Of a DNA stretch of 64,000 nt, positions 11,651 through 17,623 are shown piece by piece. Each line of letters starts with the position of its first letter. Position 1 is the stretch's first letter. The notes below the pieces were generated by a model that saw only the letters and a program-made list of their open reading frames with translations, did not search any database and was not told where the DNA came from. A program made the position numbers and the translations under genes. Source of the DNA: Comamonadaceae bacterium (GTDB lineage Bacteria > Pseudomonadota > Gammaproteobacteria > Burkholderiales > Burkholderiaceae_C); NCBI GenBank assembly GCA_027488215.1, contig JAIYCB010000011.1, forward strand, positions 1 to 64,000. The letters run 5' to 3'.

Positions 11651-11665
11651 ATGATAGGAAGTGCT

Positions 11666-12457
11666 ATGACAGCGACATTGACTTGGCCCCACGTTCAAAG
11701 GGCCGTTTTGACCTTTGCCTTCGATGTGCGAGAAGGCTTTGTAGAGATCACCCGGCACAGCCTGGCTGTGATCGGCTTGGCTGTGGTGGCCTTGGCCTTG
11801 ACGCTTTTGGCTCGCCCCAACCTGCAGCAAGTGGCCAGCGAGACACTGATGGGATGGCTTCAATTGCGCCAGGTGGAACAAAGTGTCCCCTTGGAAGCAC
11901 CAATCCCCATGGCAGCAGCCCGATCCACCGCATCGCCAATGCAAGACCTGAGCAGCGATCAAGCGGCCGTGACGCGTTGGCTCAGCAACAAATACAAAGT
12001 CTCCAAGGAGCCCTTGGCAGCTTTGGTCTCGGAAGCCTGGTCTTTGGGTGAGCGCAGCCAGATTGCGCCGACCTTGCTCTTGGCCGTGATGGCCATTGAG
12101 TCGCGCTTCAACCCCTTTGCCCATGGCAACCAAGGTGGCTTGGGTCTGATGCAAATTGAGCCCGATGCGCACATTGCTGCCTTGTCTCCTTTTGGAGGTC
12201 GGCTGGCTGCCTTTGACCCTCTGACCAATCTGAGGGTCGGCACGCGTCACCTGCAGAGCTTGATTCAGGACACGGGGACTCTGGAAGAGGCCCTGCGCTT
12301 GTATGCTGCCGCCTCTGGGCAAGGCAACAACGACCAGTACGTGGACCGCGTATTGGCCGAGCAAAAGCTCTTGGACAACTTGAGCAAAGGCCAAAAAACA
12401 GCCTTGACAGACAAAAACAACGCCGCTTTGCAGAGATCGCCTCAAACCCAAATGTGA
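11666..12457 (+). CDS. lytic transglycosylase (SLT domain) family protein
   Basis: LLLAVMAIESRFNPFAHGNQGGLGLMQIEP; NLRVGTRHLQSLI; LYAAASGQGN (GLMQI/ES motifs). Confidence 0.88.
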   Translation: MTATLTWPHVQRAVLTFAFDVREGFVEITRHSLAVIGLAVVALALTLLARPNLQQVASETLMGWLQLRQVEQSVPLEAPIPMAAARSTASPMQDLSSDQAAVTRWLSNKYKVSKEPLAALVSEAWSLGERSQIAPTLLLAVMAIESRFNPFAHGNQGGLGLMQIEPDAHIAALSPFGGRLAAFDPLTNLRVGTRHLQSLIQDTGTLEEALRLYAAASGQGNNDQYVDRVLAEQKLLDNLSKGQKTALTDKNNAALQRSPQTQM

Positions 12458-12499
12458 ATTTGTGGCCCAAAAGCATGGGCCGGCTGGGCTACACTTGAA

Positions 12500-12704
12500 G
12501 GGTGCGCGACTGGCGATAGGAGCCTGTTTTTTTATTACAAAACAGAGCACTCTGACGTGGAGCGTGGTGGCCCGAGTCACTGCCGAACCACTGGGAAGCG
12601 CACAGCCTGGCCGTTCATCTTGCATGACGAGACAGGTTTTAAGCCGTTCGCCTGGGCAGCCCTTGTCAATGAACCCAAGGTTCGGGTCAAGGTCACCTCC
12701 ATCC
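12500..12704 (+). ncRNA. candidate structured RNA upstream of glyA (possibly 6S-like or a cis-regulatory leader)
   Basis: Helices CTGTTTT/AAAACAG (12524-12545), GTGCGC/GCGCAC (12502-12507 with 12598-12603), CCTG-CGTtCAT/ATGACG-CAGG (12606-12636), CCTTG-GAACC/GGTTC-CAAGG (12661-12692); the last resembles the 3' hairpin of proteobacterial 6S RNA. Confidence 0.4.
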
Positions 12705-12715
12705 TAAGGACTGCC

Positions 12716-13960
<1,245 letters not shown>

Positions 13961-14493: not shown

Positions 14494-15123
14494 TCAACAA
14501 TTGGCGCTTTTCAAGCGTTCGGCTTTTTCCAATCGGGGCTTGCCCACAGCATTGATCACCACCCGCCAGACATGCGCTTGCCCGACCCCGCAAAGGGTCA
14601 AGGTACCCGCCTGAAACGCACCTGTCGTGCTTTGGCTGCGGCCCTCCAGACCATACGAGACATACCGGTTCACCGTGGTATTGCCTTGAAGCGTCAAAAA
14701 GGCAGGCAAGGGGTTTTGCACATGCAAGATGCTCTCAGTCTCCTCGCGCTGGGCGTTGTCGTTGCCGTCCACAAAAACCACCCAACCTTGCGTCCAATGT
14801 CCGGCCATGGCGCAGTCCGCCCGCGAAGCAGCTTCAGGTTGCCGGACGCAGAGCGTGACGCGCTGCTGGCGGCGCAAGGCCTCTGAGCGCGCCAGCAACA
14901 AACTGGCTTGCAATTGCTCGGCCAAGCTTTGCATCTGGTGCTTTTGGCGTAACCCCTTCAGACTGGGGGCCGCTATAGCCAACAGCACCCCAAGCAGAAC
15001 CAGTACCACCAGCATTTCGAGCAGTGTGAATCCCCGGTAGCTCACGACAAGCCCTCCTCTTTGGTCAGACAAAAAAGATCCTCGATTCAGCCACATTGAG
15101 TCAATTCCGCCAAGACTGTACAA
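14494..15123 (-). CDS. GspH/FimT-family type IV minor (pseudo)pilin
   Basis: YRGFTLLEMLVVLVLLGVLLAIAAPSL class III signal peptide; GspH-like C-terminus. Start codon uncertain. Confidence 0.88.
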   Translation of the reverse strand: MYSLGGIDSMWLNRGSFLSDQRGGLVVSYRGFTLLEMLVVLVLLGVLLAIAAPSLKGLRQKHQMQSLAEQLQASLLLARSEALRRQQRVTLCVRQPEAASRADCAMAGHWTQGWVVFVDGNDNAQREETESILHVQNPLPAFLTLQGNTTVNRYVSYGLEGRSQSTTGAFQAGTLTLCGVGQAHVWRVVINAVGKPRLEKAERLKSANC

Positions 15124-15171
15124 ATAAATATTTTGTATTCAAAATATAGCGGGTATGGGGAAGGTAAAAGC

Positions 15172-15633
15172 ATGACGAATACCAAAGCAAAAACCATTGC
15201 GCTCCCGTCAAAAGTCCACTTCGGTTGGACCTTGAACGAGCTTTTGGTGAGCCTGACGTTGATGGCCACGCTGGCGGCCATTGCCCTGCCCGCTTTTATG
15301 GGGCAGCAACGCCAGGCCCGACGCAGTGACGCTCAAAGCGCTTTGCAACAACTGCAACTTGAGCAAGCACGATGGCGTGGAACCCAGAGCAGCCATGCAG
15401 CAGATTTAGCCAACTTGGGTTGGACAAGCAACTTATCCCCTGGCGGTCATTACCGCATCACGATCGAAGATGCCAGCAGCGAAGGCTACAGTTTGATCGC
15501 CACCCCCATTGGCCCACAAGCTCGTGACACATCCTGCTCACCCATGCGCCTCCAATTGCGACACATGGCCACCGTGGTGCTCAGCAGCGGGGACGATCCT
15601 GCAGACGATCCCGGACGTTGTTGGCGGCAATGA
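15172..15633 (+). CDS. PilE-like type IV pilin/minor pilin
   Basis: HFGWTLNELLVSLTLMATLAAIALPAFMGQQRQARRSDAQSALQQLQLEQARWR. Confidence 0.8.
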   Translation: MTNTKAKTIALPSKVHFGWTLNELLVSLTLMATLAAIALPAFMGQQRQARRSDAQSALQQLQLEQARWRGTQSSHAADLANLGWTSNLSPGGHYRITIEDASSEGYSLIATPIGPQARDTSCSPMRLQLRHMATVVLSSGDDPADDPGRCWRQ

Positions 15634-16367
15634 GTCCCACAATGCCAAAGTGCCACAAGTTGCGCATGACCCGTGTCTCTGCCCAGACCGCACTAGGTGG
15701 TCTTGCGAATTGTCGCAGCATAGGTCGGATCACTGGTTGCCCCGTGTCGACACAACAAGGCGAGACCTTGGTGGGCTTGCTGGTGGGTCTGGGCGTGGGT
15801 TTGGTGGTTCTGGCTGCAGGCAGCCAGATGCTGGCGCATCACTTGCAAGGGCATCGCCTTGCCTTGCAAGACAGTCATGTGCACCACGACCTGCGTTCAG
15901 CACTGGACAACATCACTCAAGAATTGCGGCAAGCTCAATCGCTCGGACAGGCGTGGCGGTTGCGCGCCGCAGCCGAATGCATGGACGCCCTTTGTGGGGG
16001 CCTGTCCGAACTGAAGGTCCAAGGCCAGCGTATCAGCTTTGGACGGGACCGCAATCTCAACGGCATGTTGGACAACAACGATTGTTCAGGTTTCCAATTG
16101 AGGGACCATAAACTGCAAATACGAACCGCTTGCACGCCTGAGGTCTGGACCGATTTGACCGATGCCGGCAGCCTGAAAGTCACTGGCTTGCAATGGGAGG
16201 TGCAATGTGAAAAACGCGGGCGCTGGGTAGCGCGTTGGGTTACGGTAAAACTGAGCGCACAGTGGCCGCGTGACGCCTTACGCGCGCTGAACCTGACGCA
16301 AACTGTGTTCCTGCGCAACGATGTGCCCGCCTCGCCCTGGCCTCAAGTTTGTGGGGCTGCCCAGTGA
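15630..16367 (+). CDS. PilW-like minor pilin
   Basis: QQGETLVGLLVGLGVGLVVLAAGSQMLAHHLQ...DLRSALDNITQELRQAQ; ATGA overlap with upstream gene; start uncertain. Confidence 0.7.
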   Translation: MSPTMPKCHKLRMTRVSAQTALGGLANCRSIGRITGCPVSTQQGETLVGLLVGLGVGLVVLAAGSQMLAHHLQGHRLALQDSHVHHDLRSALDNITQELRQAQSLGQAWRLRAAAECMDALCGGLSELKVQGQRISFGRDRNLNGMLDNNDCSGFQLRDHKLQIRTACTPEVWTDLTDAGSLKVTGLQWEVQCEKRGRWVARWVTVKLSAQWPRDALRALNLTQTVFLRNDVPASPWPQVCGAAQ

Positions 16368-17623
16368 CTCCAACAGAGGCCATGCGCGGTCACTACAGCC
16401 CCCCTGGGGCCAGGACCGAAGTCGGAGCCATCAGTTTGATGGTGGCGATCAGCCTGAGTCTGCTTGCCAGCTTGGCCAGTTTTTACAGCGCGCGCAGTGT
16501 GCTGGTAGACCGCCTGGCCAACGACAATCGAATCAAGACCGTCCAGGCGCGACTGGTAGCCGAATCCGCCTTGGCCTGGGCTCGGGCCGACCTGCAAAAG
16601 CAATACGCCGGCAACGCGCCGGCGCCCATCTGGCTTGATGACAGGAACTCCACGCCCTGTCCTGAGATTCACAGAGGGCCGCGCTGGCAATGCCTGTCGC
16701 TCCAACCGCCTGCACACCCAAGAATGCCAGATGCACAAGCCCAGATTCTGGTCCTCCGCGACCTGGTCTCCTCGCCTCACGTGGCCCAATTACAGGCCAG
16801 CGCCAGGCTGAGAGACGGCGCAAGTCGTGCGCACGTCCAGGCGCATGTGTTCATACCAACCGTGGCACTGGCCCCGCTCCATCCCAACACGGCAGCAGTG
16901 GTGCTCAATGGCTGCGCTGGCCCAGCTTTGGGCGGGCAAGTCAGTGTGTGTCCGCTCAGCCAAACGGGCATGGCCTGCAGCGGCGTACCCACAAGCGCAG
17001 CGGTGCACAGTTTCTGGCTGGCAGACACCCACAACAGCGAGATCACTAAAGCTGAGCCTCGCAAGTGCTTGGCTTTTGGCGCTGAACATCTACCCGCAGG
17101 AGGCGCTCTTACAGGCACTGTCTCGGCCTTGCCCCGAGGCAAATGCACCAACGAAGCTTGGACCAGCGTGCTGGGCGACATCACCCCAGAACAGATCCGA
17201 GCCTGGTCTGAGGCGCAAGCGCGCAACGGTTTGACCGCCCTGAGCCAACCCGCACGCAACATCTACTGGGTAGACAGCCCTGCCACCTGGACCCAAAGCT
17301 TGGGCACCATCGATGCGCCAGTGCTGCTGGTTTTTTCTAGCCAGGCCTGCGCCCAGCGCTGCCCGAACATCGCTCCTGGTGTGCGCGTGGTAGGCACCGT
17401 GGTCTTGCAAACCCAATGCCAGGACGATAAAGCCCGGGCCTGGCACGCCGGTCACATCGAGGGGCAACTGGTGGTCGAGTCAGGCTTACCCGAGCTGCAA
17501 AGCGGCAGTCGCGTTTTGGCACGCGCGTTGGCCCAAGCTCCCTATCGACTACCCTGGCCCCCGGGCATGGACGCGAGGCAAGTGCAGCGCGTGCCTGGCA
17601 GCTGGCGAGAGGGAAGGCCATGA
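16349..17623 (+). CDS. PilX-like (large, Cys-rich) minor pilin
   Basis: GAISLMVAISLSLLASLASFYSARSVLVDRLANDNRIKTVQARLVAESALAWARADLQ; operon position between PilW- and PilV-like genes. Confidence 0.6.
   Translation: MWGCPVTPTEAMRGHYSPPGARTEVGAISLMVAISLSLLASLASFYSARSVLVDRLANDNRIKTVQARLVAESALAWARADLQKQYAGNAPAPIWLDDRNSTPCPEIHRGPRWQCLSLQPPAHPRMPDAQAQILVLRDLVSSPHVAQLQASARLRDGASRAHVQAHVFIPTVALAPLHPNTAAVVLNGCAGPALGGQVSVCPLSQTGMACSGVPTSAAVHSFWLADTHNSEITKAEPRKCLAFGAEHLPAGGALTGTVSALPRGKCTNEAWTSVLGDITPEQIRAWSEAQARNGLTALSQPARNIYWVDSPATWTQSLGTIDAPVLLVFSSQACAQRCPNIAPGVRVVGTVVLQTQCQDDKARAWHAGHIEGQLVVESGLPELQSGSRVLARALAQAPYRLPWPPGMDARQVQRVPGSWREGRP

Follow-up and report, generated by a model that had tools for sequence, protein, structure and literature searches.

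A putative ZMP/ZTP riboswitch with a candidate translational platform in the glyA leader of a Comamonadaceae bacterium and its relatives

The pfl motif (RF01750) is the aptamer of the ZMP/ZTP riboswitches, and glyA is among the genes most commonly associated with it (PMC2864571). ZMP and ZTP act as signals that 10-formyl-THF is short, and GlyA is a source of one-carbon units (PMC2864571, PMC7266159). In the ZTP switches that have been studied, an invading strand in the expression platform captures the P3 3' bases when ligand is lacking, and ligand blocks this exchange (PMC10085676, PMC7337938); the invader nucleates on those same 3' bases (PMC10085676). The pfl riboswitch of Clostridium beijerinckii is such an ON switch and ends in a terminator (PMC10085676), as do those of Fusobacterium ulcerans (PMC7484762) and Thermosinus (PMC7337938). 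A ZTP riboswitch upstream of glyA, Hsnc029, has been described in another beta-proteobacterium, Herbaspirillum seropedicae (PMC7011215). The class, its link to glyA and a beta-proteobacterial example are already known.

Here, we describe the leader upstream of glyA in a Comamonadaceae bacterium, analysed within a window of 64,000 nucleotides (the whole stretch of DNA under study). The leader has in common with the pfl motif the P1-P2-P3 layout, the strands of the J1/2-L3 pseudoknot, the core sequences and glyA downstream. It departs from the class in having an additional covarying stem inserted after J1/2 and ahead of P2, a long linker, and a start-site helix in place of a terminator. An initial annotation of this DNA had proposed a 6S RNA gene or, alternatively, a regulatory leader of glyA, and it was the second suggestion that was borne out, by a match to RF01750. 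The analysis identifies a previously unannotated leader as a putative sensor of folate stress for the principal one-carbon gene in a freshwater beta-proteobacterial lineage. Its platform is testable and, if confirmed, translational, in a class for which terminators are the usual ending among the members studied.

The glyA leader and its aptamer

The leader is flanked by a transglycosylase gene (SLT domain, 11651-12457) and by glyA, the presumed regulated gene, which encodes serine hydroxymethyltransferase (12716-13960, plus strand; Pfam SHMT, E 6.9e-169) and is followed by nrdR. Beyond nrdR, ORFs on both strands (14494-17623) resemble type IV pilin and minor pilin genes by eye. All leader features given below are on the plus strand. 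A -10-like promoter element, TACACT (12490-12495), is present in 48 of 54 leaders of the genus, and in 45 of these 48 it is spaced 12 bases ahead of the conserved [AG]ACTGGCG. A consensus scan gave no match for an accompanying -35 element; transcription probably starts directly 3' of TACACT. In two members of the same genus (L187 and L192), the riboswitch is absent upstream of glyA and a TACACT box is found near the gene.

When the whole window was scanned at the Rfam cut-offs, a tRNA was the sole match, and RF01750 was found by a permissive scan. The model aligned over its full length (1-86 of 86) to positions 12496-12664 with 37.4 bits, 1.6 bits below the cut-off of 39; the E value for the whole genome was 1.7e-4, and no second match was found genome-wide. 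In this alignment the class-invariant parts GCGCGACTGGCG and GCCGTTCGCCTGGGC are intact, and three insertions are accommodated, namely about 35 nt between J1/2 and P2, an enlarged P2 loop and an extended linker leading into P3, which are the likely reason for the score below cut-off. The corresponding match in Hsnc029 covers 100 nt with 59.3 bits against 169 nt here, and the comparison of the two leaders covers the aptamer class and the gene. Given also that glyA, a one-carbon gene, stands directly 3' of the element in the window and in relatives, the leader is, on sequence grounds, almost certainly a ZMP/ZTP riboswitch. The folate-gene association suspected initially does not run through 6S RNA but stands in another form, glyA being a known target of a class that senses 10-formyl-THF shortage.

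P1 is formed by GTGCGC (12502-12507) and GCGCAC (12598-12603), a pairing supported by the RF01750 alignment, by conservation and by compensatory changes across genus and family. Across 126 distinct sequences its six inner pairs are preserved almost without exception, with exchanges among G-C, A-U, G-U, C-G and U-A and both-sided changes at five of the six pairs; in the window, the four outermost pairs that the Rfam model assigns to P1 do not form. Paired cells amounted to 0.94 over 31 distinct arm pairs, and 1000 shuffles of the 3' arms gave no more than 0.87, a comparison which, like the shuffles of the extra-stem arms, carries no correction for the relatedness of the sequences.

The J1/2 segment at 12508-12515 is the conserved GACTGGCG, which matches the invariant GACUGGCG of RF01750 and is kept in relatives, and the second part of the conserved core, CCGnnCGCCUGGGC of the P3 loop, was found at 12644-12657. 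Within these parts, GGCG (12512-12515, J1/2) is complementary to CGCC (12649-12652, L3), as required for the pseudoknot, and because both strands are invariant the pseudoknot draws no support from covariation. The insertion between J1/2 and P2 holds an extra stem, GGAG.../...CTCT (12519-12553), whose base covaries in relatives (GGAG/CTCT, GGGTT/AACTT, GGGCT/AGCTT) and whose cap pairs CTGTTTT (12524-12530) with AAAACAG (12539-12545). P2 (12557-12591) was placed by the RF01750 alignment and pairs GTGG (12557-12560) with CCAC (12588-12591) around its enlarged loop. Between P1 and P3, a variable linker hairpin (12606-12636), also an insertion relative to RF01750, pairs CCTG (12606-12609) and CGTTCAT (12612-12618) with ATGACG (12624-12629) and CAGG (12633-12636). 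P3 (12643-12657), likewise placed by the alignment, joins GCC (12643-12645) to GGC (12655-12657) around the loop that holds CGCC; its sequence GCCGTTCGCCTGGGC is near-invariant in the genus, and its mere three standard pairs in the window were counted against the assignment.

All helices named in the initial annotation, and TACACT, were found in the sequence, although they proved of unequal worth: GTGCGC/GCGCAC is the covarying P1, and CTGTTTT/AAAACAG caps a stem with a covarying base, whereas CCTG..CAGG belongs to the variable linker. P2, P3 and the pseudoknot were absent from that description.

RF01750 was matched in 56 of the 60 genus genomes (32 above the cut-off) and in 81 of the 101 from the family (65 above it), but a broader sampling of the order gave matches in just 15 genomes out of 150. 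Limnohabitans, Variovorax, Hydrogenophaga and Polaromonas are among the relatives that have the element, and glyA starts right after P3 in every relative with enough contig sequence. The leader L106 (G205), for which the family scan scored no RF01750, shows an evident aptamer by its core motifs, so the scan undercounts the lineage.

Expression platform and the glyA start site

Downstream of P3 the order is GGCAG-CCCTTG...CAAGG, a linker, and AAGGACTGCC-ATG. The strand GGCAG-c-CCTT (12655-12664), which comprises the 3' strand of P3 and four further bases, is common to P3, the downstream hairpin and a start-site helix. It is complementary, with one C-A mismatch, to AAGG-a-CTGCC at 12706-12715, and the two are paired in the MFE fold. 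This second strand is the Shine-Dalgarno sequence and spacer of glyA, AAGGACTGCC, here proposed as the anti-P3 invader. The downstream hairpin (12661-12692) pairs CCTTG (12661-12665) and GAACC (12671-12675) with GGTTC (12679-12683) and CAAGG (12688-12692). Full 6-nt arm complements were found in 26 of 71 family leaders, compared with a mean of 11.2 (maximum 20) when arms were swapped. The genus set (10 full matches in 47, versus 12.4 with arms swapped) is uninformative because the arms barely vary, and the family set alone supports the hairpin.

The CTGCC portion of the proposed invader tracks the aptamer. Among leaders that have an aptamer, it occurs within 12 nt before the start codon in all 54 from the genus and in 45 of the 67 from the family, compared with 2 of 39 glyA genes of the order that lack the aptamer. 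Another set, which shares some members with the first, gave 85/111 with the aptamer and 0/26 without. L187 and L192 have neither aptamer nor CTGCC, yet keep TACACT, and an apparent counter-example, L249, dissolved, since its CTGCC occurs together with an aptamer. After correction for the tree, about four pairings of aptamer and CTGCC were concordant and none discordant out of eight (p 0.125), which is not significant in an underpowered comparison. Compensatory double changes were seen in L175 (GGCCG with CGGCC) and in L252, Lampropedia hyalina (GGTAG with CTACC), and the remaining departures from GGCAG are uncompensated; covariation of the start-site helix is confined to these two cases because its bases hardly vary in the genus. 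Roughly one quarter to one third of the aptamer-bearing family members have no CTGCC, which implies another mode of action there. L093 and L095, ZTP leaders from families of the order other than this one, carry a CTGCC that is complementary to P3 and lies approximately 27-29 nt before the start codon, a spacing that suggests a different platform layout.

Access to the start site was expressed as the computed cost of opening positions -13 to +3, in an energy model containing neither the pseudoknot nor the ligand. Holding P3 from other pairing lowered this cost by a genus average of 2.9 kcal/mol (shuffles 0.05); for family members the reduction was 1.5 with CTGCC and 0.8 without it (shuffles about 0). 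For the window, the cost fell from 6.8 to 4.9 kcal/mol, a drop of 1.9 (shuffles 0.7). A change in start-site access on holding P3 is supported by these computations, and the class, the target gene, the covariation of P1 and the extra stem, and the complementarity of P3 with the start site are supported by what can be read from the letters themselves.

Our best reading is that binding of ZMP or ZTP would free the glyA start, making the leader a translational ON switch, with the ligand and the ON direction taken from the family. P1, P2, P3 and the J1/2-L3 pseudoknot would form the pocket for ZMP/ZTP, a ligand that accumulates as 10-formyl-THF runs short. With ligand bound, P3 would keep GGC(AG), CCTTG would fold onto CAAGG, and AAGGACTGCC-ATG would be left open, so that GlyA is made and one-carbon units are supplied. 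Without ligand, P3 would yield, CTGCC before the start codon would invade the P3 3' strand GGCAG, and CCTT would pair with AAGG of the Shine-Dalgarno sequence, so that the start site is closed. With the ribosome-binding site competing for the P3 3' strand, ligand binding should open glyA to translation, and ON control of this gene fits the biology, since ZMP/ZTP marks a lack of 10-formyl-THF and the product of glyA is a source of one-carbon units. In Clostridium beijerinckii the invader that takes the P3 3' strand completes a transcription terminator, whereas in the glyA leader the ribosome-binding site would itself be the invader.

We consider it highly probable that the leader is a ZTP riboswitch acting on glyA, most likely at translation. 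It also seems reasonably likely that Comamonadaceae and relatives share a lineage-wide translational ZTP riboswitch, in which the P3 invader is the Shine-Dalgarno sequence and spacer of glyA and an extra covarying aptamer stem holds the scores of many members close to or below the Rfam cut-off. No translational start-site platform for ZTP riboswitches was found in the literature searched, which excluded most subscription papers (Kim et al. 2015 among them), and no priority is claimed.

Alternative readings of the leader

Closed start sites often bring secondary Rho effects, and the best-studied ZTP riboswitches end in terminators; both would favour a ZTP riboswitch that controls transcription, by intrinsic or Rho-dependent termination, over one that controls translation. 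We regard this as unlikely, given that the complement of P3 falls exactly on the Shine-Dalgarno sequence and spacer across the lineage, and that the CCTTG/CAAGG hairpin is followed by no U-tract. A transcription terminator 3' of the aptamer was rejected, none having been found on this strand.

A score slightly below the Rfam cut-off, a P3 of three pairs and the complete loss of the element in some relatives are what might be expected of a degenerate aptamer that has lost ligand sensing and whose conserved bases persist as a leader. Within the genus, however, the binding-core sequences GACTGGCG and CCGTTCGCCTGGGC are intact and near-invariant, whereas the stems around them show compensated variation, and we hold such decay to be very improbable compared with a functional ZTP riboswitch.

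The idea that the locus is the 6S RNA (ssrS) gene, giving a free RNA of about 180 nt that binds RNA polymerase, can be set aside with near certainty: the length agrees and the hairpin CCTTG-GAACC-caa-GGTTC-CAAGG superficially resembles the end hairpin of 6S RNA as described in the initial annotation, but only its CCTTG/CAAGG base is general, the 6S-like inner GAACC/GGTTC stem occurring in 5 of 56 genus loci, and RF00013 gave no match in 12000-13200 even at E<=10. The genuine 6S gene of this genome lies on another contig (G000:C41:45417-45596; L002 1501-1680, minus strand), where RF00013 scored 46.5 bits, above the cut-off, just downstream of zapA (an ORF with a ZapA domain).
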